Below, piece by piece: positions 29,746 to 42,867 of a DNA stretch of 57,755 nucleotides (the stretch's first letter is position 1; every line of letters begins with the position of its first letter). Both the position numbers and the translations under genes were made by a program. The DNA comes from a virus, in the IMG/VR virus record IMGVR_UViG_3300009183_000110, positions 1-57,755 of that record, one strand, 5' to 3'. The notes under the pieces are model-generated. The model was not told where the DNA came from, did not search any database, and saw only the letters and a program-made list of their open reading frames with translations.

Positions 29746-29771
29746 GGAAACCCCTTCCGTGGTCTGAACAG

Positions 29772-29800
29772 AGCGTACTACATAAGGTACAGAACTACAA
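29772..29800 (-). promoter_or_regulatory. TTGTAG-family promoter
   Basis: TTGTAG, 17 bp, TACGCT; motif A (29805) is 4 bp upstream. Confidence 0.8.
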
Positions 29801-29819
29801 GGGGACTTATCTATCACCA

Positions 29820-30119: not shown

Positions 30120-30148
30120 TGGTCAACCCCTTCTACTGGTCTGATGAA

Positions 30149-30177
30149 ATCGTACCACAGCAGGTACAGGATTGCAA
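30149..30177 (-). promoter_or_regulatory. TTGTAG-family promoter (variant)
   Basis: TTGCAA, 17 bp, TACGAT; -35 deviates. Motif B (30193) lies 15 bp upstream. Confidence 0.6.
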
Positions 30178-30238
30178 CCTTTTCTTTTGGAAACTTTTCT
30201 ATCGCGACCCCCAATCATTCTCGCTCGCTCGCCGATGA

Positions 30239-30315
30239 GAGCCCCGTTCGTGCCGAACAGCCACGGGGCTGTCTTGAGAACGGGAAGAACCCCACCCGAG
30301 TGAGGTGGGGTTCTC
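30239..30315. terminator. Two adjacent GC-rich hairpins
   Basis: GAGCCCCGT (30239) with ACGGGGCT (ends 30270), then GAACCCCACC (30286) with GGTGGGGTTC (ends 30314). Located after the 30332 gene. Confidence 0.5.
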
Positions 30316-30331
30316 CGCTGGGGGGACTTAT

Positions 30332-30613
30332 CTATTCAGTAAGAGCGTCAGCGATGAACCTGGTAGCCCAACCCATTGGCTCGCACCGAATCACTTCGCC
30401 ATCAACTGTGACTTCGTCTCCAACTGAAAGCGCAGTGTGTGTGCGTGTGGCTGGCAGGAGCGGTTCCAGTTCGTCCCATATCGGACCAGCGTAAACATTC
30501 GTTTGGTGGAATATTGCATCGCATATCTCCAACGCGCTTGCGCTCGTGTCAAGCGCGAGTGCAGCCGATGTTGGTTCGCCGAACGCTTTCCATGTGATTG
30601 TTACTTGCTTCAT
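30332..30613 (-). CDS. Hypothetical protein, 93 aa
   Basis: ATG chosen for GAAGGG upstream. Contains VTITWKAFGEPTSAALAL and LSVGDEVTVDGEVIRCEPMGW, a small beta-rich protein. Stop TAG lies in motif A (30326). No family. Confidence 0.6.
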   Translation of the reverse strand: MKQVTITWKAFGEPTSAALALDTSASALEICDAIFHQTNVYAGPIWDELEPLLPATRTHTALSVGDEVTVDGEVIRCEPMGWATRFIADALTE

Positions 30614-30653
30614 GACTTTCCCTTCATGGGCGGGTACTTCCCGCCGTACAAGC

Positions 30654-30682
30654 ATCGTACCTGGTCAGGTACAGACCTACAC
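30654..30682 (-). promoter_or_regulatory. TTGTAG-family promoter
   Basis: GTGTAG, 17 bp, TACGAT; motif A (30681) is directly adjacent, sharing 2 bases, and fused to motif B-like CACAACCCCC. Confidence 0.75.
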
Positions 30683-30736
30683 TTATCTATCACAACCCCC
30701 ATCGCGTGTTGTTCGCGCCGAACACCCGAGCCGATG

Positions 30737-30781
30737 AGAGCCCCGTTCGAAACAATAGAGAACGAACGAGAACGGGGCTTC
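30737..30781. terminator. GAGCCCCG-family hairpin
   Basis: GAGCCCCGTTC pairs with GAACGGGGCTT; long loop with second pairing. No T-run. Confidence 0.45.
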
Positions 30782-30846
30782 TACCATTAGCGCAAAATCT
30801 TTCCGATTCCGGCAAGAAATTCCGGTGAAGAAAAAACCCGCCGGAA

Positions 30847-30882
30847 TTTCTCCCCGGCAGGGAATTTCGTGCCGGGGAGAAA
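30847..30882 (-). terminator. Likely terminator after 30898 gene
   Basis: TTTCTCCCCGGCA (30847-30859) pairs perfectly with TGCCGGGGAGAAA (30870-30882), and a T run follows on the minus strand (30831-30836). Confidence 0.6.
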
Positions 30883-30897
30883 AAGTTCACCGGGTGT

Positions 30898-31227
30898 CTA
30901 ACTCGCTTGCCTGACCAACTCATCGAAGCCCTTGCGAGCCTCTGTGAGCGTGCAGAAGTCAGGGTGGAGCGTGTAGGGCGCATTGGCCTCTAGGCCGTCC
31001 CACACGAGGACTACAGGGCAATCCACAAGGCAAGGGATGTATCCGCCACGCTCGTGCTCTGCTGCGTATTCCATCTCCTGAATCCATATTTCGATACGGG
31101 TGGTATCGCTCTTCCATGAGGCCACTGTGTGCTCCTCCCAGCAGGTTCCGATGGGTTCTAGGGCGAGGTTGTTTTTCTCGGCCCATGCTTCGGCTTTGGT
31201 GTAATCGGTGAAGTGTTTTTTTGTCAT
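30898..31227 (-). CDS. Hypothetical protein, 109 aa
   Basis: ATG lies 7 bases after the -10 of the promoter at 31234, so likely leaderless. Trp/His-rich (DYTKAEAWAEKNNLALEPIG, TRIEIWIQEMEYAAEHERGG). No family. Confidence 0.6.
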   Translation of the reverse strand: MTKKHFTDYTKAEAWAEKNNLALEPIGTCWEEHTVASWKSDTTRIEIWIQEMEYAAEHERGGYIPCLVDCPVVLVWDGLEANAPYTLHPDFCTLTEARKGFDELVRQAS

Positions 31228-31233
31228 GGCCAC

Positions 31234-31262
31234 AGAGTACCCGGGGAGGTACAGACCTACGG
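31234..31262 (-). promoter_or_regulatory. TTGTAG-family promoter, leaderless
   Basis: CCGTAG, 17 bp, TACTCT; the ATG at 31227 coincides with the expected start site. Confidence 0.65.
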
Positions 31263-31282
31263 ACATTTCGCGCTAACGATGA

Positions 31283-31369
31283 GAGCCCCGACGGAAACGA
31301 ACCCGAACGGGGCTTGTCCCTGCGATAAACCCCACGCCCCTGATGGAAGGGGGGGTGGGGGCGTGGGGA
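31283..31369. terminator. Two GC-rich hairpins
   Basis: GAGCCCCG (31283) with CGGGGCTT (ends 31315), then CCCCACGCCCC with GGGGGCGTGGGG (31331-31369). Follows 31394 gene. Confidence 0.5.
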
Positions 31370-31393
31370 GAACTTATCTATTCCAAGAGGTGG

Positions 31394-32002
31394 CTAGTAG
31401 CTGTCCTCGTAATCCAAGCGGTATTGCTCGTCCTGCTCCTCTTGCGTCATGTGTTCCATGCTGATGGAACGGTGACCTGCTTCGCACTCCCAACCAACTC
31501 GCACGCCGTTGCGAATGACATCTGCGAGCTTCGCACCACAATCAACGATTGCGTAGCGGTTGCCTGACTCTGCTGCTCGTTCACCGAGGCTTTCACCGTG
31601 CCACTGCCTGTGTTCGGCGTTCTCCTCATCTGTGTATTCGGGGTTCGGCACGAATGGGAAAGCTGCTTCCCATGAGCGCTCTACGAGCCAACCACAACGG
31701 CTAGCTGCCTCTTGTTCTTCGCGCCAGCGCTTGTACGCCTCTTGCTCTGCTTCGCGCTCTCGGTCGCCTTCCTCAATAATCCAGCCGTAAACATCTTGAC
31801 GAAGCTCGCAAAGCTCCTTGACTGCTTTGAGCGCCTGCTTGATTGTGAGCGCCTTGTCTCCGTCCCAGCCGAATGTTTCTACAAGCTCCTCGTCTGAGTA
31901 GCACTCGGCTAGTTCTGACTCAAAGAATGTCTGCGGGTCTGTGTAAGCAGGTAGCGCCTTGATTGCGTCTACTACTGCTGCGTGGTGTGGGTGTGTGTTC
32001 AT
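31394..32002 (-). CDS. Acidic hypothetical protein, 202 aa
   Basis: Glu-rich helical protein with a long coiled-coil-like centre (EEGDREREAEQEAYKRWREEQE). C-terminus acidic. No family; sits alone downstream of the 32030 peptide gene, with motif A (31372) after its stop. Confidence 0.65.
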   Translation of the reverse strand: MNTHPHHAAVVDAIKALPAYTDPQTFFESELAECYSDEELVETFGWDGDKALTIKQALKAVKELCELRQDVYGWIIEEGDREREAEQEAYKRWREEQEAASRCGWLVERSWEAAFPFVPNPEYTDEENAEHRQWHGESLGERAAESGNRYAIVDCGAKLADVIRNGVRVGWECEAGHRSISMEHMTQEEQDEQYRLDYEDSY

Positions 32003-32029
32003 CGGGTGTGGTTCCTTCCTTTGTCCGAA

Positions 32030-32131
32030 TTACTTTTTATCTTTTGGCTTTGATTTGCCGCGCTTATTCCAATGACCTGCGCCGCCTACGAATGAGGTAG
32101 GTGGGCGGCTGTTCTTATCGTGTGGCTTCAT
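32030..32131 (-). CDS. Small basic protein, 33 aa
   Basis: AAGGAG 6 bases before ATG. Product MKPHDKNSRPPTSFVGGAGH then a Lys-rich tail. First gene downstream of the TATAAT promoter, just upstream of 31394. No family. Confidence 0.55.
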   Translation of the reverse strand: MKPHDKNSRPPTSFVGGAGHWNKRGKSKPKDKK

Positions 32132-32175
32132 GTGGGCTCCTTGTGGGTTGTTGTGGTGGTTGTGGGCGTGCGCGG

Positions 32176-32204
32176 ATTATACAAAAGTAGGTACAAACCT
32201 ACAT
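32176..32204 (-). promoter_or_regulatory. TTGTAG-family promoter with TATAAT
   Basis: ATGTAG, 17 bp, TATAAT, the strongest -10 of the family, with GTAGGT-TTGT-ACCTAC. Supports treating TTGTAG/TANNNT as true promoter elements. Confidence 0.85.
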
Positions 32205-32300
32205 TTTTACGACCGCAAACCCTTTATTTGCAAGGAGTTGCGTTTTGCAATCGGTCAGTTTTGTAAAAGATTTAAACCACTTATCTATCCCTTATTTCGC

Positions 32301-32326
32301 CAGCTCCCAGCTCCCAGCTCCCAGCT
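32301..32326 (+). repeat. 7-bp tandem repeat
   Basis: CAGCTCC repeated three times plus CAGCTG. Confidence 0.8.
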
Positions 32327-32335
32327 GAAATCTTG

Positions 32336-32472
32336 CTTATTTATCGCGACCCCCCAAGCTTGCTGCTCTCGGCGTCACGCGCGCGAGGTAGAAGCCCCGT
32401 TAGGAGCGAACAGCATCGGGGCTCCCATGCGCTGGCATAACTGCCTTGCAACGGGGGTAGAGATAGAAAAGT
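32336..32472. repeat. Palindromic MITE-like element E1
   Basis: Motif B inverted at both ends (32336-32355 minus, 32453-32472 plus) around a GAAGCCCCG/CGGGGCTCC hairpin (32391-32425). 137 bp. Confidence 0.75.
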
Positions 32473-32724
32473 TGCTGACTCGCTTACTTTCTCCGAGCGA
32501 AGCCTGCTTTCTATTACTGAATAGATAAGTCGTTTCGTTTTCGTATCAAGATGACGCTTCTATCAACTGCGAGCATCGTTTTCAGAAACGGAGACGATGA
32601 CACGTCTAATAGGTAACGGACAAAAACTTTTGACATAAAGAGATGCAAGGACTCTTGTAAAAGATGTAAGAAAAAATGTCCGATTGTAAAACACAAGCAA
32701 CCTCATAAGAGGTGAGAGGAAAAA

Positions 32725-33036
32725 ATGAAAAAAACAAAAGCACTCCAACCGTACTTTGCAACTAGCACCAACCAGTTCTCTGATGAGTACGAGCAAGATG
32801 ACATGACTACATCTGTCATCTATGACGAGATTGCCGATGGCTACATCTGTGCGTACTGCGCCGAGGACTTAGGTCTCAACAGCGAAGAGATAAAAACGCA
32901 TCAAGCATTGTTGAGTGAGTACGAAGGTGGTGGTCATCTTTCATCTGCGTACATCGTCAAGAGAAAAACAAAAAAGACACTTGCACATTACGATTGTTTG
33001 CAATGCGACTTACCAGTGTCTCGTTCGTTTGATTAG
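32725..33036 (+). CDS. Zinc-binding-like protein, 103 aa
   Basis: Shine-Dalgarno GAGAGG. CAYCAEDLG and CLQCDLP are two CxxC zinc pairs. The only plus-strand gene inside the minus block. Motif A (33039) lies 2 bases after its stop. Confidence 0.7.
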   Translation: MKKTKALQPYFATSTNQFSDEYEQDDMTTSVIYDEIADGYICAYCAEDLGLNSEEIKTHQALLSEYEGGGHLSSAYIVKRKTKKTLAHYDCLQCDLPVSRSFD

Positions 33037-33050
33037 TAATAGATAAGTGT

Positions 33051-33125
33051 TCACCACCATCTATCGTCACGAACTATTGCTATTAGAACTGCAAGCGTTA
33101 CTGCAATAACAAATAAAAAAACCAT
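33051..33125 (-). CDS. Micro membrane protein, 24 aa
   Basis: AAAGGA 6 bases before ATG. Product is one transmembrane helix (VFLFVIAVTLAVLIAIV) plus RDDRWW. It follows the 33138 membrane protein by 12 bases; may be a small regulator or holin-like peptide (inference). Confidence 0.5.
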   Translation of the reverse strand: MVFLFVIAVTLAVLIAIVRDDRWW

Positions 33126-33137
33126 AATCAATCCTTT

Positions 33138-33428
33138 CTATGAGTCCATGTATGGGTCGTACCATTCCCATGTGCCGTTCTCATTGAGAACAACGCTTTG
33201 GTAATGACGGCAATCTGCAAGCGTCTTGGTTGGATTGAGCACTGCGAACTCACGAGCGTTCCATGTGAAGTCACGCTCTAATGTCACATCACAATCGGGT
33301 GTTTCATCAGATGCAAAAACTGCAATAGATGTTGTAACAATCCACATGATTACTGCGAGTATCGTTCCCCAAAAGATAAAACGAATGACAGACCTAAGTG
33401 TGTAATAACTATCGCTTTTGTTATTCAT
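33138..33428 (-). CDS. Membrane protein, 96 aa
   Basis: One N-terminal transmembrane helix (FIFWGTILAVIMWIVTTSIAVFA) preceded by a basic stretch, then an extracytoplasmic part with Cys pair (PDCDV, LADCRHY). Coupled with 33431 and 33670 genes. Confidence 0.65.
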   Translation of the reverse strand: MNNKSDSYYTLRSVIRFIFWGTILAVIMWIVTTSIAVFASDETPDCDVTLERDFTWNAREFAVLNPTKTLADCRHYQSVVLNENGTWEWYDPYMDS

Positions 33429-33430
33429 GA

Positions 33431-33670
33431 TTAGTAGTCCTCTGACTTATCTATTACCCATAGTGGGAATGGTTGCTTGTAACAAAAGTATTCGTAATCT
33501 CTTTCAGCAATGCCTGTCACCCACATTGCATCAGTTCTTTCGTGGAGAGGTGTTGTACGGTCATCGCCTATGCGAGCACTGACATTCTGCATTGCTACTG
33601 CCATTGCTCCATCGTCATCTTCTGCCTCAACATCAAGCGTGACCTGAACAGTTACACGGTAAGTAAACAT
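33431..33670 (-). CDS. Hypothetical protein, 79 aa
   Basis: Begins in a TGATG overlap with the 33670 gene. Beta-rich (YRVTVQVTLDVEAEDDDGAM). Its C-terminus WVIDKSEDY includes motif A in frame (33445), so the motif has extended or replaced the original tail. Confidence 0.65.
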   Translation of the reverse strand: MFTYRVTVQVTLDVEAEDDDGAMAVAMQNVSARIGDDRTTPLHERTDAMWVTGIAERDYEYFCYKQPFPLWVIDKSEDY

Positions 33671-34083
33671 CAGCAACCTGCCATTCGTTCAGCACGACTT
33701 TCAGATGCGCTATCAAATGCGTACTGACGGTAGTTGTCAATGAACTCAATAACTTCTTCAGGCAATGCGCCTTCGTTCATCTCATAGACCTTTCCACTTC
33801 CATCACACGCTTCACAACGGTCATCGTAAGCACCACGCAAGTACGCTTCACGAGACTCATCGCTCCACTCTGCAAACTCTTCTGAACTCATTGCACCGAA
33901 ACGGCGAGAGTGTCCACCGTTGCCACGGCAGTAATCACAGATGACCCACTCCATGTGGAATGTGAAAGGTGCAAGTTCTTCATCTTTCACGGCATCAAGT
34001 AAAGCATCAAGCAACTTTTTATCTGACTCAATAACTTGAGCCTCGTACGAAAGTTGTATTCCGTCATAATCTATTTTTGACAT
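33670..34083 (-). CDS. DnaJ-like zinc-finger protein, 137 aa
   Basis: CDYCRGNGGH and CEACDGSGKV are the paired CxxCxGxG motifs of DnaJ/YtxH-type zinc fingers; no J domain. GAAGGGGG before ATG. Likely protein- or nucleic-acid-binding adaptor. First gene of a four-gene minus unit from the 34122 promoter. Confidence 0.75.
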   Translation of the reverse strand: MSKIDYDGIQLSYEAQVIESDKKLLDALLDAVKDEELAPFTFHMEWVICDYCRGNGGHSRRFGAMSSEEFAEWSDESREAYLRGAYDDRCEACDGSGKVYEMNEGALPEEVIEFIDNYRQYAFDSASESRAERMAGC

Positions 34084-34121
34084 TTAGTTCCCCCTTCAGG
34101 AAAGTGTTATGTGGTCACTCA

Positions 34122-34150
34122 ATAGTAACCCAATAGGTACAGAACTGCTA
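34122..34150 (-). promoter_or_regulatory. TTGTAG-family promoter
   Basis: TAGCAG, 17 bp, TACTAT; motif A (34156) is 5 bp upstream. Confidence 0.65.
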
Positions 34151-34249
34151 GGGGTACTTATCTATTACAGATAACCCGAGCTTCTCCCTCGCAACGAGGA
34201 GCAGACTTTTTTATCACGACCCCCACCACCGAAGCAAGCGAAGCGCAAG

Positions 34250-34334
34250 GGAGCCCCGTTGGGAACGAGCGAGCCGGGGCTTCCTTGGTCATCACTCTGA
34301 GCGAGTTCTTCTTTCACTCAGAGTGGTTGATGAC
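34250..34334. terminator. Two hairpins after 34342
   Basis: GGAGCCCCG (34250) pairs with CCGGGGCTTCC (ends 34284). A second hairpin, GTCATCACTCTGAG (34288) with CTCAGAGTGGTTGATGAC (ends 34334), runs into motif A (34333). Confidence 0.5.
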
Positions 34335-34341
34335 TTATCTA

Positions 34342-34863
34342 TTACCGATTGGCTGGGAGTGCTGGTAGCAACTCCCAATGCTCAACTGCAAGGCACTCGG
34401 CTTCGGGGTAGGTGCCATGCGAGGTCTCCACCATTGTGGTCTCGTAGTTGATAACGGACTTGGTTTCCGAAACGCCGTGGATGTCCTCGGAGAGCCACTT
34501 GCCTTCAACAAGAATGAGCGAGCCTTCGGCGATTGCAGCGCTTTTTGGAAACTGCACAAATGCGAACCCTCTCGGAATGTCATCCCATCCGTTGCTTCCC
34601 CAATTGAGATAGCCCGTGCCTTCGGTGAGGCACCAAATGCAACCACAGGCTTCCATCGCTGAACCCTGCTCGTCGTCCTCTGCTTGGTTGTAAGAGCACT
34701 GGCGCTCTTCCTTGATGAGATTGACAATGTCTTGGTCAAAGAAGTTGGGGTGGAATGTTCCAACCACAGCGAGTGCATCGCCTTCCTCTTTGACTTCGTA
34801 AACGAAAAGCACAGTGCGAGCCTGCACCTCTTCGTCCTCCAACTGCTGAACAACACCGAACAT
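34342..34863 (-). CDS. Hypothetical protein, 173 aa
   Basis: ATG chosen for GGAAGGG upstream. Cys-rich segment QGSAMEACGCIWCLTEG. Stop TAA is followed by motif A. No family recognised. Confidence 0.6.
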   Translation of the reverse strand: MFGVVQQLEDEEVQARTVLFVYEVKEEGDALAVVGTFHPNFFDQDIVNLIKEERQCSYNQAEDDEQGSAMEACGCIWCLTEGTGYLNWGSNGWDDIPRGFAFVQFPKSAAIAEGSLILVEGKWLSEDIHGVSETKSVINYETTMVETSHGTYPEAECLAVEHWELLPALPANR

Positions 34864-34904
34864 GGCATCCCTTCCTGCTGGGAGACCATCCCCCAACTGG
34901 ACAC

Positions 34905-34933
34905 AGAGTACATGGTGAGGTACAAACCTCCAC
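34905..34933 (-). promoter_or_regulatory. TTGTAG-family promoter (variant)
   Basis: GTGGAG, 17 bp, TACTCT; motif A (34938) is 4 bp upstream. Confidence 0.6.
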
Positions 34934-34976
34934 CGAGACTTATCTATGAAAGAAAGACCCTGACCGATTAGATGAA

Positions 34977-35113
34977 ACTTTTTTATCACGACCCCCAAGA
35001 GTAGGGAAGCGCCCTTCCCGATGGGAGCCCCGAGGGAACCGAGCGCGAACGGGGCTCCAACCGTAAGAGTCCGAGAGACTCCGAGGCTGTGACGGGGGTT
35101 GAGATAGATAAGC
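34977..35113. repeat. Palindromic MITE-like element E2
   Basis: Motif B at both ends (34977-34996 minus; 35094-35113 plus, the latter fused to a motif A-like ATAGATAAGC) around GGAGCCCCG/CGGGGCTCC (35024-35058). 137 bp, same length as E1. This lies between divergent genes and marks the strand switch. Confidence 0.75.
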
Positions 35114-35173
35114 CCAACTATCGGGGGTTGCCGAGTGGCGAGGCGTGAGCGTATCGGTAATAGATAAGTCCCA

Positions 35174-35202
35174 CAGTAGTTCCGTACCTACGATGGTACT
35201 AT
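35174..35202 (+). promoter_or_regulatory. TTGTAG-family promoter
   Basis: CAGTAG, 17 bp, TACTAT; motif A (35160) is 4 bp upstream. Confidence 0.7.
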
Positions 35203-35234
35203 GCGAGTAGTCAAACAACCATGAAGGGGTAACC

Positions 35235-35669
35235 ATGACCACAGCAACCACCAACCTACTAGCGCAAGCCAAGCGCCGTGAGCGTGACCGTGAGGTCACC
35301 TACCGTTGGCAGTCCTCAAAGGTAGACATTCCGCATGTCCACAGCAATGACTTGTGGGGTGAGCAAATAGAACTTGAGTTCAGCCATGACGCTAAGCGCA
35401 AGCAGTATGAGGCAACTATCCGTCTAGTTCACTGGCAACCACACGCCACCATGAGCGTGACATCATTTACCGTCTTTGACTTCGCTACCTACCCTGCTAC
35501 CAAGTTTGCCACGCAAGCGGTGGGGCGCTACGGCGATAAGTCCTTCGCCGAGTTTGAGCGCACAGTCCTAGCCTCATTGGGCAAGTACCTAGACGGCACA
35601 GCGCCTGACTACTACGCTGACGGCATACTTACGGGATTACTCGCAAGGGCTAGCGCCTTTCCTGAATAG
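35235..35669 (+). CDS. Hypothetical protein, 144 aa
   Basis: Shine-Dalgarno GAAGGGG. Basic N-terminus (LLAQAKRRERDREVTYRWQS), a beta-rich middle and helical end. TAG stop lies in motif A (35666). No family. Confidence 0.65.
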   Translation: MTTATTNLLAQAKRRERDREVTYRWQSSKVDIPHVHSNDLWGEQIELEFSHDAKRKQYEATIRLVHWQPHATMSVTSFTVFDFATYPATKFATQAVGRYGDKSFAEFERTVLASLGKYLDGTAPDYYADGILTGLLARASAFPE

Positions 35670-35688
35670 ATAAGTGCTAGATAGTCTC

Positions 35689-35797
35689 GCCTTGACTTAC
35701 TCTCACGGGTAGGTCAAGGCTTGACCTTGCGCCCGATGGGAGCCCCGGCATGACTCAGCGCGAACGGGGCCCCCACCGAGAAGTGACGGGTGGGGGC
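35689..35797. terminator. Three consecutive hairpins
   Basis: GCCTTGAC/GTCAAGGC, then GGAGCCCCG/CGGGGCCCC, then GCCCCCACC/GGTGGGGGC. Follow the 35235 gene; T runs are absent. Confidence 0.5.
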
Positions 35798-35948
35798 GCA
35801 ACGGGGGTAGAGATAAAAAAGAGTGCTGGTGCTGGTAGGTGCGAGGCGTGGGTGATTACTGAATAGATAAGTCCGAGCGAAGTATGCGAGCCAACTGCGA
35901 GCGTATCCGAGTGGATACTGCGAGCCGATACTGAATAGATAAGTCCCC

Positions 35949-35977
35949 TAGTAGTTCCGTACCTTTGCTGGTATTGT
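35949..35977 (+). promoter_or_regulatory. TTGTAG-family promoter
   Basis: TAGTAG, 17 bp, TATTGT; motif A (35935) is 4 bp upstream. Confidence 0.75.
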
Positions 35978-36010
35978 ACGAGTAGTCAAACTACTTAGAA
36001 GGGGTAAGAC

Positions 36011-36499
36011 ATGACCACACCACCACTAGACCGATTAGAAATAATCGCTAATTTCTTGCGTGAGAACGCTAAGAGTAATTCGTTCTATGCGAGCGTACTT
36101 AGTTCGCTAGACCGTTTCGGCTCTCTCACTATCAAGCAGATAGAAGCCGTAGAGGCGAGCATGGCGAAGGCTAAGGCGAGTGCGCCTGCGAACCTTGACC
36201 CTGTTACCGAAATCGGTATGTATCGCAATGCTGACGGCGTTGTTTATCGTGTGAAGTACAACAAGGATAAATCAGGAATGTACGCCATGCGTTTCGTTCC
36301 CGAAGGCACAACGAAGTCCGAGCGCATTGTCTTTGAGCGTGGGGCGTTCTATCGCCTTACTGCGAGTATGCGTATGACTATTGCCGAGTGCGCTGAACTT
36401 GGCTTGCTGTACTCAATGTGCGTTATCTGTGGGGCAGACCTAACTGACCCTAAGAGCGTTGCTAGGGGCATGGGTAGCACCTGTGCTGGAAAGGTCTGA
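36011..36499 (+). CDS. Phage protein with C-terminal Cys motif, 162 aa
   Basis: AGAAGGGG before ATG. C-terminus MCVICGADLTDPKSVARGMGSTCAGK matches the zinc-like tail of actinophage proteins (DUF6011-like). N-terminal part is helical and basic. Role unknown. Confidence 0.65.
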   Translation: MTTPPLDRLEIIANFLRENAKSNSFYASVLSSLDRFGSLTIKQIEAVEASMAKAKASAPANLDPVTEIGMYRNADGVVYRVKYNKDKSGMYAMRFVPEGTTKSERIVFERGAFYRLTASMRMTIAECAELGLLYSMCVICGADLTDPKSVARGMGSTCAGKV

Positions 36500-36500
36500 C

Positions 36501-36809
36501 ATGACTGACATAGATAAGTCCGATACGCCCGAACTGACGCATGAGGATTGTCTTGATTACGATAATCCTGACTCCCCGTGCGAAGGCTCCGTGAACTACG
36601 AGGTGACTATCCCCGTGCGCTACTACCGTTCGGGTGCGTTCGTTACCTTCCCACGCTGTGAGAAGCATTACGAGGCGTACTACGAGGAATGTGAAGCCCG
36701 TGAGAACCGTGAGCGTGAGTATCAGGCGAGCCTCTACTGTAAGCACGGTAATTATGTGGGTGACGCTTGGGGTGCTGACTACCTGTGTGGCAGGTGCGAG
36801 TCCGAGTAG
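36501..36809 (+). CDS. Zinc-binding-like protein, 102 aa
   Basis: Starts one base after the previous stop, with motif A encoding its residues 3-6 (MTDIDKSD). YCKHGN...YLCGRCESE could bind zinc. Bicistronic with 36011. Confidence 0.65.
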   Translation: MTDIDKSDTPELTHEDCLDYDNPDSPCEGSVNYEVTIPVRYYRSGAFVTFPRCEKHYEAYYEECEARENREREYQASLYCKHGNYVGDAWGADYLCGRCESE

Positions 36810-36825
36810 CCCTCTAACAGCCTTT

Positions 36826-36858
36826 GCCCTGACTTATCTATTACGGATAGGTCAGGGC
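36826..36858 (+). terminator. Hairpin with motif A in the loop
   Basis: GCCCTGAC pairs with GTCAGGGC; the loop holds TTATCTATT (motif A at 36832). Followed by TTTG. Follows 36501 gene. Confidence 0.55.
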
Positions 36859-36972
36859 TTTGCTGTGTGCGTGGACTTATCTATTACAGATACGAGCCGT
36901 GCGCCCGTGCGTGAGCGAACTCACTCCACCGATACAAGCCGTGCGATAAAGTTCGCAACCCGATAGAACTCC

Positions 36973-37113
36973 ACATTTCTATCTCTACCCCCGTCATGCG
37001 AGCAAAGCGTCACGCACGAGGGGAGCCCCGATGGAAACGAGCGAGGTCGGGGCTCCAACAGAAAGCGTCTTTTTTGACGCTTTTGTGAGCATGGGGGGTC
37101 GTGATAAAAAAGT
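36973..37113. repeat. Palindromic MITE-like element E3
   Basis: Motif B at both ends; GGAGCCCCG/CGGGGCTCC (37022-37056) in the centre, then AAAGCGTC/GACGCTTT hairpin (37062-37083). The inner arms (ATGC...AAGCGTC) also pair, so the whole 141 bp could form a cruciform. Confidence 0.75.
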
Positions 37114-37161
37114 CAGATTGTGAGTGGGTCGGGCGTGTTGGTAATAGATAAGTGGGCAGGG

Positions 37162-37190
37162 TTGTAGGTTTGTACCTCTACTGGTATTCT
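37162..37190 (+). promoter_or_regulatory. TTGTAG-family promoter
   Basis: TTGTAG, 17 bp, TATTCT; motif A (37144) is 8 bp upstream. Confidence 0.8.
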
Positions 37191-37218
37191 GCAAGCAAGT
37201 CAAACGGAAGGAAACGAA

Positions 37219-37524
37219 ATGACTATGAACAATGACCACATGACAACTGCGAGGTTTATTGACCAGCAGGCGAGCAAACACCTCGTGTACCACTACAACG
37301 GCGCACAAGCGTATGTGCGAGCAAGCCGAGATAATTCGGTATTGCTGATTATTGACCTTTCAGACATTGAGAATGTCACCATCACTACCATCATTGACGC
37401 AAGCGATTATTTCTTGGCGTATGCGAACTATCCATCTCACTACAAGAGTTTGTTAGAGGCGTACCCATTGGAAGCGCACTTCTCAATGTTCGGCACTCGC
37501 CCTGTAATCACGGTGGGTAAATAA
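37219..37524 (+). CDS. Hypothetical protein, 101 aa
   Basis: GGAAGGAAACG upstream. Alpha/beta (NSVLLIIDLSDIENVTITTIIDASDYFLAYANYP). First of four coupled genes (37219-38359). No family. Confidence 0.6.
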   Translation: MTMNNDHMTTARFIDQQASKHLVYHYNGAQAYVRASRDNSVLLIIDLSDIENVTITTIIDASDYFLAYANYPSHYKSLLEAYPLEAHFSMFGTRPVITVGK

Positions 37525-37525
37525 C

Positions 37526-37957
37526 ATGAGTACACGAGCAATAATCGCAAGCGAACTAGCAGGGGGCAGGTGGCATGGGCGTTACGCTCATTGGGACAAC
37601 TACCCATCTCGTATCGTGCCTCTCTTGGCTGAACTGCGAGAGCGTGACGGATTAGCGAAAGTGGTTCAGACGCTTTTGCACGACCACAACTCTTGGTCAG
37701 TAATCACCACCGAACCTCGTGAGGAAACTGCAAGCGATAACTACTGCGAGGGCTACGGTATTTTTCACACCGATACGCCTGATGACGAGTATGCGTGGTA
37801 TGCGCCAGAGGACAAATCGTTCTCATGGGCTGACTATGTGTATGTAATGCGTAAAGATGGTGTCACCGTTTATGCCGTAGAGGGATTAGACGAAAATCAA
37901 ACATTGGCAGAAATTGCAAATTATTCGTGGGCAGACGCTATGAAAGTGAGTGCGTGA
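37526..37957 (+). CDS. Phage protein, 143 aa
   Basis: Begins STRAIIASEL..GRWHGRYAHWDNYP, a pattern I recognise from many actinophage hypothetical proteins. Starts one base after the previous stop. Function unknown. Confidence 0.65.
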   Translation: MSTRAIIASELAGGRWHGRYAHWDNYPSRIVPLLAELRERDGLAKVVQTLLHDHNSWSVITTEPREETASDNYCEGYGIFHTDTPDDEYAWYAPEDKSFSWADYVYVMRKDGVTVYAVEGLDENQTLAEIANYSWADAMKVSA

Positions 37958-37958
37958 A

Positions 37959-38249
37959 ATGGTAATAGATAAGTACAAGCGTAGGCGTTTCGCTTTCGGC
38001 ACTACCTCGCTTATTGTTCTGCTGTTCTCTCTCCCTCTCGCTGGTGCTGTTGTGGGGTGGATTACGGCTGACCGTACCCACTTCACTTGTGACACGCCTA
38101 CGGTGAATGTTGAGAAGGGTGACACGGTGTGGAGTATCGCTCGCACAAATTGTCACGGAGACACGGGGGCTGTCATCTCACGGCTCGTGGATTTCTACGG
38201 AACTAGCCTAGACACTTGGCAAGTGCTGACCATGCCACATGACAGATGA
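37959..38249 (+). CDS. Membrane-anchored LysM-like protein, 96 aa
   Basis: ATG at 37959 lies in ATGGTAATAGATAAGT, so motif A supplies residues 3-5 (MVIDK). A transmembrane helix (TSLIVLLFSLPLAGAVVGWI) is followed by NVEKGDTVWSIARTNC..., a LysM-like fold that would face the cell wall. Function: maybe peptidoglycan binding (inference). Confidence 0.65.
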   Translation: MVIDKYKRRRFAFGTTSLIVLLFSLPLAGAVVGWITADRTHFTCDTPTVNVEKGDTVWSIARTNCHGDTGAVISRLVDFYGTSLDTWQVLTMPHDR

Positions 38250-38359
38250 GAACGCTCGTGATACTCGCCCTCTGTTCACCGTTGCTCGGTGTTGCTCTCA
38301 TGGCAGGCGTTGTGGCGTGGCACTTGTCTATTGAGGATAGGCACGAGGGCAGAGAGTGA
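38246..38359 (+). CDS. Micro membrane protein, 37 aa
   Basis: ATG overlaps the TGA of the LysM gene. One transmembrane helix (LVILALCSPLLGVALMAGVVA) plus charged tail. Possible partner of the LysM protein. Confidence 0.55.
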   Translation: MRTLVILALCSPLLGVALMAGVVAWHLSIEDRHEGRE

Positions 38360-38451
38360 CACGCTCGCTCTATCTCTCGGCTGTCTCGGTATCAGCAATA
38401 GATAAGTCACCCAACCCAACCAATTCACTCGGCTCGGCTTCCTTTCCCATT

Positions 38452-38484
38452 GGAGCCCCGCCGTTGGCGAAATGCCCGGGGCTC
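38452..38484. terminator. GGAGCCCCG hairpin
   Basis: GGAGCCCCG pairs with CCGGGGCTC. Flanked by motif A (38398) and motif B (38523). Follows the 37219-38359 unit. Confidence 0.45.
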
Positions 38485-38625
38485 TTTCCGAACACGCCAA
38501 GGCGAGGGCGAACGAGGGGCTTGGGGGTCGTGATAAAAAAGTCAAAAAATAGCGAGAAGGGTTGTGGGTTGTCCTGTTAGTGAATGACGGTGGTGGAAGT
38601 CTTTTTTCTGAATAGATAAGTGCCA

Positions 38626-38654
38626 TTGTAGTTCTGTACCTAATCGTGTACGCT
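38626..38654 (+). promoter_or_regulatory. TTGTAG-family promoter
   Basis: TTGTAG, 17 bp, TACGCT; motif A (38612) is 4 bp upstream. Confidence 0.8.
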
Positions 38655-38688
38655 GTCCTTGTCACAACAAACCACGAAGGGAAACGCT

Positions 38689-39153
38689 ATGACACTTTCA
38701 TTACTCGCTACGGCAGAGTTGGCAGAAGCCAAACTCCACCACCTACTCAGTCACCCGACTAATCCTGATGACCAGTTCCAACTGTCCTCATCTCGCCTCT
38801 ACGGTGTCACTATCACCAACAACGAAGCGAAACTCACTCACCTCTCGTCACATGATGATGTTTATGACCTACTGGACAAGGCAGACCGTAAGGTTGCTAA
38901 GTCATACGAGTTCACGGCAGTAGTTACAACGGGTTGGGCTGCGCCACTTCCCAAGGACTTTGACGCAGAAGTTGGTCTTGACACTCCACCAAGTCAGCAC
39001 CCTGAAAAGCGTCGTGTTCGTCTCGTTGTGGTTGCTACTCGTGAAGATGTTGTAAGCGTTCTCCGTTTCCAAGACGAGCCTGATGACACGATTACTGATG
39101 AAGGTGGCGCAACTGGCAGTCTCAATGACGCTATTCGCAACTTCATGCGCTAA
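38689..39153 (+). CDS. Hypothetical protein, 154 aa
   Basis: ATG chosen for GAAGGGAAACG upstream; an earlier in-frame ATG has none. Helical start, beta-rich middle (RRVRLVVVATREDVVSVLRF). Followed by a perfect hairpin and inverted motif A. Confidence 0.65.
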   Translation: MTLSLLATAELAEAKLHHLLSHPTNPDDQFQLSSSRLYGVTITNNEAKLTHLSSHDDVYDLLDKADRKVAKSYEFTAVVTTGWAAPLPKDFDAEVGLDTPPSQHPEKRRVRLVVVATREDVVSVLRFQDEPDDTITDEGGATGSLNDAIRNFMR

Positions 39154-39169
39154 CACTTAGCAAGCCTTA

Positions 39170-39201
39170 GCCCCTGTCAGCCACCCCATGCTGACAGGGG
39201 C
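39170..39201 (+). terminator. Strong hairpin after 38689 gene
   Basis: GCCCCTGTCAG pairs perfectly (11 bp) with CTGACAGGGGC, followed by TTT. Motif A in minus orientation starts 5 bases downstream (39206). Confidence 0.7.
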
Positions 39202-39307
39202 TTTGACTTATCTATTACCAAGGTGACCTGACTTATCTATTACGGTTGTGCGAGCGTTACGGTTTTTTGATTATTCCAAATAGATAAGTTACGCAACCCC
39301 GAACTCA

Positions 39308-39435
39308 ACTTTTCTATCTCAACCCCCAAGTGCGCTCTTGTTCTCTCGTTTCGGAATGAGCCCCGTTGATAACGAACTAGGTCGGGGCTTTCTTGCGAAC
39401 ACATGGCGAGGGACGGGGGGGCGAGATAAAAATGT
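39308..39435. repeat. Palindromic MITE-like element E4
   Basis: Motif B at both ends (39308-39327 minus, 39416-39435 plus) around GAGCCCCG/CGGGGCTT (39358-39390). 128 bp. Confidence 0.7.
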
Positions 39436-39450
39436 AATAGATAAGTGGGC

Positions 39451-39479
39451 GTGTAGGTCTGTACCTTGAGTGGTACGGT
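39451..39479 (+). promoter_or_regulatory. TTGTAG-family promoter
   Basis: GTGTAG, 17 bp, TACGGT; motif A (39437) is 4 bp upstream. Confidence 0.75.
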
Positions 39480-39522
39480 ATGCGAGTCAGCACCCACCTA
39501 CAAGGCTGGCAGGAGAAACCAA

Positions 39523-39942
39523 ATGAAACAGAAATCCATAAATGTAAAGGTCAGCACTAAGAAAGTGATTGACGCATTACAGAAGGCTCTTGACTTTCGC
39601 AATAAGCAAATGTCCGATTACGAAAAAGCAAAAAAAGAATACGAAAAAGAAGTCAAAGACTTCCAAGACAGTCTTTCGGAGTTGTTTCGTTCAGGCAAGG
39701 GCAAGGTCACAAATGTCAGCAAGTACAACAACTACCGTAACGAGGAAGGCAACAAGTACGAACTCACGATTGAGTTTCCTGCTTCGGTGAAAGCACCAAA
39801 AGAGCCTGAACAAGACTTCGTTCATTGGGCTATCAAATCAGAGATTGAGGAGTTGGAGAACGCTATCAGTATCCTTCGTATGACAGACGAGGAAACAGTA
39901 AGCACCAACACCTACGCAGGGGTCGCTCGCTACATAAAGTAG
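39523..39942 (+). CDS. Coiled-coil hypothetical protein, 139 aa
   Basis: ATG chosen for GGAGAAACC upstream. Long Lys/Glu helix (EKAKKEYEKEVKDFQDSL) then a beta-rich end. Followed by an intrinsic terminator. No family. Confidence 0.65.
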   Translation: MKQKSINVKVSTKKVIDALQKALDFRNKQMSDYEKAKKEYEKEVKDFQDSLSELFRSGKGKVTNVSKYNNYRNEEGNKYELTIEFPASVKAPKEPEQDFVHWAIKSEIEELENAISILRMTDEETVSTNTYAGVARYIK

Positions 39943-40009
39943 TTGAGCGAGGGCTTAGTACCTCTGTCCCCCCTTCCTTTCAGAAGGGAAACGCCCACAC
40001 CAACAAAGA

Positions 40010-40046
40010 GGGAGACTTATCTATTACAGATGAGTCTCCCTTTTTT
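40010..40046 (+). terminator. Intrinsic terminator with motif A in the loop
   Basis: GGGAGACT (40010-40017) pairs with AGTCTCCC (40033-40040), followed by TTTTTT; the loop contains most of motif A (40015-40024). Confidence 0.85.
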
Positions 40047-40212
40047 GGTTTTCTACCTGAATAGATAAGTCGTTCTCCACGAGTACGAACTTGCTTCGCT
40101 CTAACCTTGCCCGTGTCTGACTGTTGAGCAGACGCACGGCACTCACTAGCCGTTCTACTTCTGTGAGCCGAGCATAAATCCGAGCCAGTCTGCGCTTATC
40201 CAAATCGTTCAC
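40024..40212 (-). CDS. Possible basic helical protein, 62 aa
   Basis: GTG start giving VNDLDKRRLARIYARLTEVERLVSAVRLLN; Arg-rich, looks protein-like, but has no clear promoter or Shine-Dalgarno and its end overlaps the terminator. Could be a decayed gene. Confidence 0.3.
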   Translation of the reverse strand: MNDLDKRRLARIYARLTEVERLVSAVRLLNSQTRARLERSKFVLVENDLSIQVENQKRETHL

Positions 40213-40354
40213 TTTTCTATCTCTACTCCCCATGCGAACTTGCCTATCGGGGGGTTTGCCGAAGGGAGCCCCGATGATGCCCGACTAGAACGGGGCTCCA
40301 ACCGAGAAGGGGCGAAAAGGAGAGGCGAGGCATGGGGGGTCGTGATAAATAAGA
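40211..40354. repeat. Palindromic MITE-like element E5
   Basis: Motif B at both ends, with ATGC next to each, around GGGAGCCCCG/CGGGGCTCC (40264-40299). 144 bp. Confidence 0.75.
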
Positions 40355-40403
40355 GACTAACTGTGAGGGTGCGAGGGGAGTTGTAAATAGATAAGTCAAA
40401 AGG

Positions 40404-40432
40404 TTGTAGTTCTGTACCTGACCGTGTACGCT
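40404..40432 (+). promoter_or_regulatory. TTGTAG-family promoter
   Basis: TTGTAG, 17 bp, TACGCT; motif A (40387) is 7 bp upstream. Confidence 0.8.
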
Positions 40433-40475
40433 TGTGGGTACCACAAGCGATACACACCCACGAAAGGGGTACATC

Positions 40476-40880
40476 ATGGAAGCAGAAACAATCAACCAAG
40501 CAGTAGAGGCTTTTCTCACTGCTCTAACAGCCAAAGAGCAAGCCGAGCAGGCGCATGACGAAGCGAGAGAGTTGCTTATCGCAACATTCGCAATCGCAGG
40601 CGTGAGCGAAGCCGAGTTCGCAGAACTGAATGTCAAAGTCTCGCCAGCAGAACGCCGTTCGTTCTCTGTTGAGAAATTGCGTGAGCAACTTTCGCCAGCA
40701 TTGTTTCGCAAGGTCACCAAGCCAGCGATTGACACTAAGGCGTGGGACAGCGCAGTAGGCAAGGGCGAAATCACCAAGAAGGTCATCAAGTCCTGCGTGG
40801 AAATCACGAACAGTGTGCGAGTTCTCGTGAAGCCTGCCAAAGGTTCAGTCAAGCCTGCGAGCAAAGCAGAAGCCGTCTAA
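40476..40880 (+). CDS. Helical hypothetical protein, 134 aa
   Basis: ATG chosen for AAAGGGG upstream. Ala/Glu-rich helices (EAFLTALTAKEQAEQAHDEAREL) with a basic Lys/Pro/Ala tail. No family. Confidence 0.65.
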   Translation: MEAETINQAVEAFLTALTAKEQAEQAHDEARELLIATFAIAGVSEAEFAELNVKVSPAERRSFSVEKLREQLSPALFRKVTKPAIDTKAWDSAVGKGEITKKVIKSCVEITNSVRVLVKPAKGSVKPASKAEAV

Positions 40881-40893
40881 CCAATTCATCTGC

Positions 40894-40921
40894 GAGTAGT
40901 GGGGAGAAGTCCCCACTACTC
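40894..40921. terminator. Perfect 12-bp hairpin
   Basis: GAGTAGTGGGGA, loop GAAG, TCCCCACTACTC. No T run. Overlaps the start of AATAGATAAGT (40922). Confidence 0.55.
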
Positions 40922-40936
40922 AATAGATAAGTCCAC

Positions 40937-40965
40937 CAGTAGTTCTGTACCCACAGTGGTACGCT
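40937..40965 (+). promoter_or_regulatory. TTGTAG-family promoter
   Basis: CAGTAG, 17 bp, TACGCT; motif A (40923) is 4 bp upstream. Confidence 0.7.
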
Positions 40966-40995
40966 ATCAACACCTACCAAACAAGGAGAGCCATC

Positions 40996-41439
40996 ATGGC
41001 AACAGCAATAATCATCAAGTCCACAGGTGAAGTATTCACGCAGGACATACCAAGCGAGAACGGTCACACACTCATTCACGAAATCGTGGGTGGCTGGTTT
41101 GACTGTGTACGAGGCGAAGAAATCGTGGGCTATGTCCATGACGAAGGATTGCTTATCGGGCTACCAGTGAACGCCGTAGCGTCTATGTTGTTCCAGCGTC
41201 CACTTGTGGGTGACTGCGTTGTAATCGGCTCTCTCAACGAGCGTGGCGAGTATGACGGAGAGAACCACGACATTCCAGCAACCTACACATCAGGACGCTT
41301 TTTTGACTTTGCGAAAGAAATCGCAGAGATGGAAGTCATCAAAGAAATGCTGACCAAAGAAATCGCTGAAATGGATTTCAGACCAACCATTACCGAGATG
41401 ACAGATGAGCAGATGAACGCTTGGTTGGGTGGCGAGTAA
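40996..41439 (+). CDS. DUF3846-domain protein, 147 aa
   Basis: GGAGAG before ATG. GGWFDCVRGEEIVGYVHDEG and GLPVNAVASMLFQRPLVGDCVVIG match DUF3846; paralogue of 28695 but divergent. Its end overlaps the next ATG in a TAATG. Confidence 0.75.
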   Translation: MATAIIIKSTGEVFTQDIPSENGHTLIHEIVGGWFDCVRGEEIVGYVHDEGLLIGLPVNAVASMLFQRPLVGDCVVIGSLNERGEYDGENHDIPATYTSGRFFDFAKEIAEMEVIKEMLTKEIAEMDFRPTITEMTDEQMNAWLGGE

Positions 41440-41756
41440 TGTCAATAGATAAGTCCCCTACCGAGACATACCCAATGCGATTGCTGAAAGTGGGTGACAC
41501 ATTCACTCCTAGCAGTGGCAGTAATCCTGTCACCATTCTCGCTTGCTGGCTCTCTCGCCCGTCTGACATTGACGCTTACGCCGTGTGGGTTGTTCTCTGT
41601 CTCTTGCCACACAACACGCTTCACCCGTTCGCAGTGTGGAACGCCGTAGACCGTCCCGAAGGTTGGCACATGGAGAATGGTGATTACCGTGAAACCGTTA
41701 CTGAGGCTACTGCTCAATACGAGAGGCGTGGTGGGCATTATCTCCTGACCGAGTGA
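41439..41756 (+). CDS. Hypothetical protein, 105 aa
   Basis: ATG at 41439 overlaps the upstream TAA; motif A encodes residues 3-5 (MSIDKSPT). Pro/Trp-rich (CWLSRPSDIDAYAVWVVLCLLPHNTLHPFAVW). Followed at 41759 by minus motif A, so this two-gene cassette (40923-41768) has inverted motif A ends. Confidence 0.65.
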   Translation: MSIDKSPTETYPMRLLKVGDTFTPSSGSNPVTILACWLSRPSDIDAYAVWVVLCLLPHNTLHPFAVWNAVDRPEGWHMENGDYRETVTEATAQYERRGGHYLLTE

Positions 41757-41837
41757 CCACTTATCTATTCAGTAGTCTCCCTTGCGCTCGGCAGGGGAGA
41801 TTGCTCTATGTAATAGATAAGTCCCATCTTCTCCATT

Positions 41838-41871
41838 GGAGCCCCGCCTGCGCTGGTCCGTCCGGGGCTCT
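41838..41871. terminator. GGAGCCCCG hairpin
   Basis: GGAGCCCCG pairs with CCGGGGCTC, followed by TTTC. Confidence 0.5.
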
Positions 41872-42000
41872 TTCGGAACAGGGCAAAAATCTGGGGGGTC
41901 GGGATAAAAAAGTTGATTTTTTGCGAATTCGTCGGTCGAGCTGGGGGTCGCGATAAAAAAGTCGCCGTTAGCAATTGACGGTGGTGGATGAGTCTGCTGA

Positions 42001-42029
42001 TTGACTTTTCGGATAAATCTATCTACACT
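42001..42029 (+). promoter_or_regulatory. TTGACT-17-TACACT promoter, leaderless
   Basis: TTGACT (42001-42006), 17 bp containing GGATAAATCTATC, TACACT (42024-42029). ATG at 42037 lies 7 bases after the -10, so likely leaderless. Confidence 0.6.
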
Positions 42030-42036
42030 AAAAAAC

Positions 42037-42348
42037 ATGACTGACCTAAACATAGAAGAAATCTTTGACAGCGTTCCTGACGAACTGCGCCCTGACAAGA
42101 TGGGGTACAGGTTTGCTCTACAAGAGGAGAGCGAACATGACCGAGGGATTTACTGGAAGGCAGTTGTCTCACGCAATGGTGTGGAGTTCCTGACCGTGTA
42201 CAACATGGGAGAAGGTGGGTGCAACCGTTACACGGAGACGAACGAGTTGATGTTCTCGGACTTCCAGTTCCTAGCCTCGGACGCATTTCCGTCAATGTCA
42301 GAGCCGTTGGACATTCTCGTACTGTGGCTTGACTACCTCTGTTCATGA
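42037..42348 (+). CDS. Hypothetical protein, 103 aa
   Basis: No Shine-Dalgarno; the -10 of the 42001 promoter ends 7 bases upstream, so leaderless. Beta-rich protein (IYWKAVVSRNGVEFLTVYNMGEGG). TGA abuts motif A (42349). No family. Confidence 0.6.
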   Translation: MTDLNIEEIFDSVPDELRPDKMGYRFALQEESEHDRGIYWKAVVSRNGVEFLTVYNMGEGGCNRYTETNELMFSDFQFLASDAFPSMSEPLDILVLWLDYLCS

Positions 42349-42363
42349 ATAGATAAGTCCCCC

Positions 42364-42392
42364 TTGTAGTTCCGTACCTCTTGTGGTACAGT
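42364..42392 (+). promoter_or_regulatory. TTGTAG-family promoter
   Basis: TTGTAG, 17 bp, TACAGT; motif A (42349) is 5 bp upstream. Confidence 0.85.
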
Positions 42393-42423
42393 GAAGGCGA
42401 AGCCAACCACAAAGGGGAAAGTA

Positions 42424-42639
42424 ATGGCAACAAAAGAATACGAAATAATCGCTCTGCTGACAAAGCAGGAAAAGATTGGTCTTGCCGAGTGGACAGAAGA
42501 TACCACCGTAGAAGCCAAGAGCCTAAAAGAAGCAGGCAAAATGGCTAGAACATTCGGCAGGAATGTTGCAGGCTTGGCAGGAGCCAAGTTGGAAGATGCT
42601 TACGCTATTGACATGGAAACAGGAGAACACTCAGAATGA
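42424..42639 (+). CDS. Hypothetical protein, 71 aa
   Basis: AAAGGGGAAAG upstream. First of a five-gene unit (42424-43635). Helical (AKSLKEAGKMARTFGRNVAGLAG). ATGA overlap with next. Confidence 0.65.
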   Translation: MATKEYEIIALLTKQEKIGLAEWTEDTTVEAKSLKEAGKMARTFGRNVAGLAGAKLEDAYAIDMETGEHSE

Positions 42640-42863: not shown

Positions 42864-42867
42864 ATAA

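Follow-up and report, generated by a model that had tools for sequence, protein, structure and literature searches.

The question raised by this locus is what five palindromic elements, E1-E5, are doing among the genes of an uncultured phage represented by the IMG/VR record IMGVR_UViG_3300009183_000110, whose 57,755 bases are the stretch analysed here (the window). The first-pass annotation had offered non-autonomous mobile elements resembling miniature inverted-repeat transposable elements (MITEs), bidirectional terminators, or protein-bound insulators. We tentatively favour, from sequence, the reading that they are two-way transcription boundaries, each made of a hairpin without a U-tract and of polar protein roadblocks on its two sides.

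All five elements are present where they had been placed, the left edge of E1 alone being off by one (it starts at 32335). Each consists of a reversed copy of motif B (GGGGGTCGTGATAAAAAAGT; 20 bp, at most 5 mismatches), a spacer, a hairpin (GAGCCCCG...CGGGGCTC), a second spacer, and a forward copy of B, both B copies pointing outward. With no strand assigned, they are E1, 32335-32472 (B(-) 32335-32354, hairpin 32391-32425, B(+) 32453-32472); E2, 34977-35113 (B(-) 34977-34996, hairpin 35024-35058, B(+) 35094-35113), between the divergent genes 34342-34863(-) and 35235-35669(+); E3, 36973-37113 (B(-) 36973-36992, hairpin 37022-37056, B(+) 37094-37113); E4, 39308-39435 (B(-) 39308-39327, hairpin 39358-39390, B(+) 39416-39435); and E5, 40211-40354 (B(-) 40211-40230, hairpin 40265-40299, B(+) 40335-40354). 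The length of 137 bp first noted for both E1 and E2 does not hold for the family: E3, E4, and E5 measure 141, 128, and 144 bp. In the alignment of the five, the conserved blocks are both B copies and both hairpin arms, the spacers being variable; the paired B arms of E2-E5 match at 14-16 of 20 positions. Folding energies of the hairpin cores are -14.3 (E1), -20.1 (E2), -23.0 (E3), -14.5 (E4), and -18.9 kcal/mol (E5), with z below -2 in three of the five (E2, E3, E5; E1 -1.02, E4 -1.84). Whole elements give z of -2.5 to -5.3 as RNA (all five beyond 2 standard deviations (sd) of shuffles) and of -1.2 to -4.9 as DNA (a margin of more than 2 sd over shuffles in four of the five); the strongest whole-element fold is that of E3, and the inner arms of E3 do pair when folded, as had been noted.

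E1-E5 are the two-sided form of a commoner module of hairpin and B. Motif B has 23 copies in the window, compared with a mean of 0.33 and a maximum of 2 in 30 dinucleotide shuffles. Fourteen of the 16 hairpins in the window bear B, five on both sides and nine on one side, and the first-pass statement that other elements have only one B holds for these nine; the two hairpins without B lie at 28107-28139 and 31283-31315 (no strand). One-sided modules on the minus strand are 29257-29346 (hairpin 29304-29346, B(-) 29257-29276) and 30681-30780 (hairpin 30738-30780, B(-) 30681-30700), in both of which B immediately precedes a putative promoter P(-), 30193-30271 (hairpin 30239-30271, B(-) 30193-30212), and 34205-34282 (hairpin 34251-34282, B(-) 34205-34224). 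Those on the plus strand are 35740-35822 (hairpin 35740-35772, B(+) 35803-35822); 38453-38542 (hairpin 38453-38484, B(+) 38523-38542); 41839-41962, with two B(+) (hairpin 41839-41870, B(+) 41894-41913 and 41943-41962); 43658-43779, likewise with two (hairpin 43658-43690, B(+) 43730-43749 and 43760-43779); and 46724-46803 (hairpin 46724-46756, B(+) 46784-46803). Any motif present in two inverted copies would be expected to give such outer pairing, and B keeps its consensus where it stands on one side only; B is therefore probably read as a site in double-stranded DNA.

Related records allowed the module to be followed further. Two further IMG/VR records are of the same phage (99.95-100% identity over the compared stretches); one of them, G001, is 158,714 bases long, has a terminal repeat of 101 bases, and holds the window in reverse. 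The relatives are G002 (158,021 bases), G003 (156,276), G004 (170,425), G005 (145,204), G012 (151,107), and G014 (153,913); the wider survey took in 80 loci of 113 stretches matched by the AAA ATPase of the window, with G015 covered up to base 160000 of 160449. In five phages (window, G002, G003, G004, G012) the hairpin stands directly behind B in 83 of 111 copies and only ahead of it in one, 27 copies having none within 130 nt; genome by genome, the counts behind, only ahead, and none are 21/0/2, 17/0/5, 21/1/8, 14/0/6, and 10/0/6. The distance between hairpin and B is 24-31 nt in 60 of the 83. Two-sided elements number 5, 5, 5, 2, and 2 in the same order. Pattern starts and mismatch limits for these counts were set by hand for each genome; the E4 homologue at G003 110342 and the left side of the E5 homologue at G002 24166, visible by eye, are left uncounted.

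Bidirectional intrinsic terminators have a GC-rich stem between transcription units and are symmetrical both ways. The present hairpins differ from these in that none of the 76 B-bearing sides has at least 5 T in the 8 nt past the stem (mean 1.2); an oriented site at a set distance is found instead. A generic terminator scan gave 28 sites, against 17.1 (sd 6.0) in shuffles.

The 3' half of B, GATARAWAAGT, is an A-like core, shared with a second motif, A (AATAGATAAGT, 11 bp), of which the window has 54 exact copies and 30 dinucleotide shuffles none. The copies span 24079-56637 (no strand), 45 of them within 30-50 kb of the window. They are found at gene ends, at gene starts, beside putative promoters, and in some cases inside genes, and are mostly oriented with transcription: sites pointing with nearby single-strand genes are 36 of 42 in G001, 40 of 51 in G002, 43 of 54 in G003, and 34 of 37 in G004 (from totals of 64, 69, 89, and 48, the rest not being near single-strand genes). 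In the putative promoters P (n = 19; 28642-46950, no strand), GTA[CT]NNT comes after a box resembling GTAG[GT]TCTGTACC. An A or B core precedes 16 of them at a distance of 0-10 nt, and in 11 of the 16 the gap is 6-7 nt. A typical rightward unit (38397-38689) runs gene end, A, hairpin, B, TGACGGTGGTGGA, A, putative P, gene. The second repeat in it, TGACGGTGGTGGA(AGA), lies between B and the promoter-proximal A in several units of the window (e.g., near 38586-38600 and 41968-41982); its letters are constant across the family while those of A and B change, and 28 of the 80 relative loci have at least six copies.

Positions are largely kept in the relatives and letters are replaced. In the corresponding region A differs in each relative (G002, AGGTGTAGGTAAGTC; G003, GAGTAGATAASTC; G004, CTAATAGATAACT), as does B (G002, ACGGGTG..CGGCAGGTA; G003, ACGGGGGagTaGTAGATAAGT; G004, ACGGGGGGCTTCCGATAAC), and the two change jointly: AATAGATAAGTC goes with GGGGGTNGNGATARAWAAGT, GGTGTAGGTAAGTC with ACGGGTG..CGGCAGGTA, GAGTAGATAASTC with ACGGGGGagTaGTAGATAAGT, and CTAATAGATAACT with ACGGGGGGCTTCCGATAAC. 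Strict A copies are clustered in every genome, 53 of 55 at 40-70 kb in G001, 67 of 67 at 10-50 kb in G002, 59 of 61 at 90-130 kb in G003, and 45 of 46 at 0-30 kb in G004. Among the 80 loci, 44 have one of 13 A classes at six copies or more and none has two unrelated classes; in the other 36 no tried A-type pattern reaches six copies. The 13 classes were chosen from k-mers of the same loci, and checks of orientation and position were confined to the nearer classes. For orthologues (reciprocal best hits with the G001 gene start at window 20-56 kb; 31, 30, and 27 in G002, G003, and G004), A is upstream in both phages, in G001 only, in the other only, or in neither in 8/2/2/19 (G002, p = 2e-4), 9/1/6/14 (G003, p = 0.005), and 11/0/1/15 cases (G004, p = 9e-7). 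Two orthologous genes have A within codons 2-7 in three phages, and the peptide follows the motif (MSIDKS, VEGVGKS, MGVDKS). As the letters change inside codons while the position is kept, selection acts on the nucleic-acid letters; as A and B change together across the region, which is expected if a trans-acting reader changed, the pattern suggests that a lineage-specific DNA-binding protein reads both.

The elements themselves follow the same pattern. In G004 the B of that phage forms two such two-sided elements, 121 and 120 bp long. Homologues of E5 are present in both G002 and G003; by eye, the left B in G002 is degenerate. E4 has a homologue in G003 (by eye), and the homologous junction of G002 has neither hairpin nor B. 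Conversely, the window has no module at junction 40880-40996, where G002 and G003 carry one. Of the relatives check proposed at first reading, conservation of position has stood and base-by-base conservation of letters has not, and presence and absence differ at these two junctions. Neither difference has a visible target duplication, and no precise target is seen at the E4-less junction of G002; such differences could be deletions between direct copies of the core. Window 37-52 kb is largely syntenic with G002-G004. For the genes flanking E1 and E2, neither G002 nor G003 offers a clear syntenic orthologue, and the flanks of E3 are only partly matched; more widely, many genes of window 26030-36000 have no clear syntenic orthologue in G002-G004, and part of the A/B-bearing region is one of high gene turnover.

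In the mechanism that we favour, a sequence-specific, probably phage-encoded protein would read the core common to A and B, and on B would act as a polar roadblock. The front edge of an elongating polymerase lies about 14-20 nt ahead of its active centre. RNA polymerase, having just made the hairpin RNA, would meet the B-bound protein about 24-31 nt further on; once blocked, its active centre would be held roughly 8-15 nt past the stem, near the point of release at an intrinsic terminator, and the hairpin would there release the RNA, with the roadblock in place of the missing U-tract. Such a hairpin would terminate only while B is occupied, and B on both sides, as in the E elements, would give blocking in both directions. 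The A sites at gene ends, at gene starts, and upstream of putative promoters would be further sites of the same protein, isolating or silencing the short transcription units of one region. What was observed, and on which this proposal draws, is the anatomy, the polarity, the spacing, the lack of a U-tract, the conservation of position, and the joint change of A and B letters. Bidirectional terminator and protein-bound insulator, first put forward as separate possibilities, may both be partly right: the anatomy, with a hairpin inside and outward-pointing sites outside, fits a combination of the two.

Candidates for the reader were sought among the phage proteins, and each was rejected. An HTH_3 (Cro/C1-type) protein of 68 amino acids (44585-44791, (+)) belongs to a family found in 9 of 13 records, with a recognition helix nearly invariant though the motifs differ; a helicase-associated/sigma-r4-like protein (50124-50498) has a recognition region nearly invariant over the aligned loci. 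A search for genes more alike in G002 and G005, which have the same motif, than in comparison with G003 had an 81-amino-acid acidic protein as its top result, G005 being without part of the region. Gene 56633-57268 (-) has a suggestive similarity pattern, yet it encodes a proteasome-family protein (PF00227), which is found in all eight relatives compared. A TrmB-like winged helix-turn-helix protein (nine of nine at E 0.1, five over the cut-off) and the protein 46206-46688 (75 of 85 loci) are conserved, with no motif-linked change seen. Pfam scans covered 100 G001 proteins, with 19 families in one half and 43 in the other, 25 of these listed.

Several points weigh against the boundary reading. 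The 27 B copies without a hairpin nearby fit badly with it, for eight B copies of the window the distance to the hairpin is 35-39 nt, and the 16 hairpins are not among the sites of the generic terminator scan, bar one overlapped by an alternative stem (28110-28126). The 8-15 nt estimate depends on the general polymerase footprint given above. Of the A copies scored near genes, 8-22% point opposite to them, and the position of A is less well conserved at stop codons (p = 0.007, 0.06, and 0.06 for G002, G003, and G004). The near-fixed gap between A and P suggests, for a subset of the sites, a direct role at promoters. A generic sigma-70 scan (10 sites, 18.4 expected) did not single out P, for which reason P is called a promoter from its position and is not a textbook sigma-70 promoter. 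Among the part of the G001 proteins scanned, no candidate reader or repressor has variation that follows the motif. B(-) of E3 and of E4 has no called gene beyond it, and B(-) of E5 sits immediately before, or over, the start of a small gene on the minus strand, where B would regulate the gene and not insulate it. This small gene is recognisable by eye in all three phages; in the window it is an uncalled open reading frame of 69 codons running leftward from 40233 (-), its start codon abutting B, and similar frames have 58 codons in G002 and about 62 in G003.

A broader form of the proposal is, we think, rather unlikely. In it the phage family would share a protein-assisted two-way terminator whose roadblock letters were replaced wholesale many times (about a dozen forms), probably so that each lineage ignores the roadblock of its relatives in co-infection, which would make of it an immunity-like code in apparently non-integrating phages.

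Of the alternatives, the one that survives best, still on the doubtful side, is that A and B are repressor operator or stoperator sites through which the region as a whole is silenced, be it late in infection, in a carrier state, or against a superinfecting phage that has the same type of motif; the hairpins would then be separate intergenic terminators that lie alongside by chance. Stoperators are described for the cluster A mycobacteriophages (L5/Bxb1; PMC6550527, PMC9283540) as dozens of short asymmetric sites of 13-14 bp, mostly oriented with transcription, in short gaps and at promoters, with a lineage-dependent consensus; their repressor, a two-domain protein, binds each site as a monomer and halts elongation. 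The sites reported here resemble that description: they are oriented and asymmetric, lie at short gaps, at start and stop codons, and beside 16 of the 19 putative promoters, and take lineage-specific forms, and B adjoins the start of the small gene beside E5. So far as sequence can tell, they may work like stoperators. Silencing alone, however, leaves the strict placing of the hairpin behind B and the preferred spacing unexplained; no candidate repressor was accepted, and no integrase or resolvase was found (PF00589 in none of 6 records, PF00239 in none of 17 and none of 9). Stoperators lie throughout the genome, whereas the present sites are mostly confined to one region of 30-50 kb; they also differ in sequence, are of two types with a shared core, and include one type (B) that stands at a set distance from a hairpin, also in two-sided form. 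As they are not spread through the genome, no repressor was found among the proteins scanned, and no integrase was found, we do not file them as a member of the stoperators. A prophage reading was tentatively rejected on the lack of integrase and resolvase and on a ParA-like match, partial, in only three of nine records (G002, G003, G012; not G001); a ParB_N domain protein is present in nine of nine.

Other repeats of mycobacteriophages are more distant. The Start-Associated Sequences (SAS) of cluster K and their extended form (ESAS) (PMC3203893, PMC11373665, PMC12699233) are oriented 13-bp repeats of the non-structural part, of unknown function, some with 17-bp inverted repeats upstream whose consensus depends on the subcluster and which enclose a putative promoter. 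SAS, however, lie 3-9 bp before start codons, have Shine-Dalgarno letters, and keep one consensus, whereas A is also found at gene ends and in codons and changes its letters; ESAS repeats are 4-14 bp apart, whereas B arms are about 90-105 bp apart around a hairpin. The SAS consensus GGGATAGGAGCCC is not enriched (2 matches at no more than 2 mismatches, 0.68 expected). The 17-bp dyad repeats of cluster O (PMC4351075) also exceed 30 copies, many of them intergenic, and occur in phages that lack an integrase; unlike the present sites, they are palindromes without clear orientation relative to transcription and share a single conserved sequence. A literature search, mostly through listings, turned up no account of oriented sites paired with hairpins in phages of this kind, which does not prove their absence from the literature. 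A few cultured mycobacteriophages are known to carry oriented sites in many copies at their gene boundaries, and of the kinds compared a mechanism is known for stoperators alone; in the present case lineage-specific repeated sites occur in dozens of related uncultured contigs, with a partner hairpin at a set distance in the five detailed genomes. This natural series opens two questions: how a protein-DNA code with dozens of sites can be altered while staying functional throughout, and whether bacterial termination can use a roadblock in place of the U-tract.

That A, or B in its place, is an activator or UP-like site of P, the other copies being decoys or weak internal promoters, is improbable. 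A is A/T-rich, and the 16 putative promoters with a nearby core, 11 of them at 6-7 nt, speak for it, but only about 16 sites lie at P, compared with 54 exact A copies, many of them at gene ends or inside genes, and by eye the gap to the promoter-like box varies widely in G002 and G003. A related idea, that A is a late promoter of a phage RNA polymerase, was dropped: A is found inside genes and overlapping stop codons, and none of three giant proteins, described below, matched an RNA polymerase family, only part of the G001 genes having been scanned.

We give still less credence to A as an RNA element (for processing, translation, or antitermination) read in transcripts, with the B arms pairing in RNA. 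The orientation of A with genes and the good folding of whole elements as RNA would agree with it; against this, A just upstream of P would be absent from the transcript that P itself starts, B without a partner arm is common (9 of the 14 B-bearing window hairpins are one-sided), and window 28000-47500 has no Rfam match. The MITE-like reading is scarcely tenable, for to set beside the inverted ends and the presence/absence differences at two homologous junctions (E4 in G002; window 40880-40996) there are no convincing target duplications (best flank matches are 5 bases with shifted edges for E1, 3 bases for E2, and none of at least 3 for E3-E5), spacers at best weakly alike (z above 2 in 5 of 20 comparisons, maximum 3.3), positions largely kept in relatives while letters were replaced, and a degenerate B pattern that matches 15 stretches of 10 contigs in IMG/VR and is repeated only in the records of this phage (two records with 13 matches each; eight other contigs with one each).

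The window has no near DNA match among known phages, and its helicase has 31-33% identity to Arthrobacter phage proteins. Six genome contigs gave matches, four labelled Actinomycetota or Ilumatobacteraceae, one Gammaproteobacteria, and one Elusimicrobia (28% identity); we take the record to come from a family of large, uncultured actinobacterial phages. Genes for two tRNAs, Ile(tat) and Met(cat), lie at window 16261-16422 (+). The three giant proteins have 4250 (window 140-12892 (+)), 3369, and 2645 amino acids, the genes of the latter two in G001 being L045:121-10227 (-) and L044:10342-18276 (-). The first was scanned whole by Pfam and over its first 1353 amino acids by PHROGs, the others by PHROGs: the 4250-amino-acid protein has ParB-like, exonuclease, and DUF3626 matches; the 3369-amino-acid protein has head-maturation protease, anti-restriction, and helicase matches; the 2645-amino-acid protein has none. 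Window 46978-49253 (+) encodes a MoxR/CobS-like AAA ATPase, followed by a large partner gene; the same order is annotated in Actinomycetia phage DSL-LC01 (AAA ATPase, cobalamin biosynthesis protein). This lake-water phage (L198, OQ999401.1, 40 kb fetched) has a repeat of its own, CTAAAGATGTTATA, in about 16 copies, which is possibly another boundary or promoter motif.

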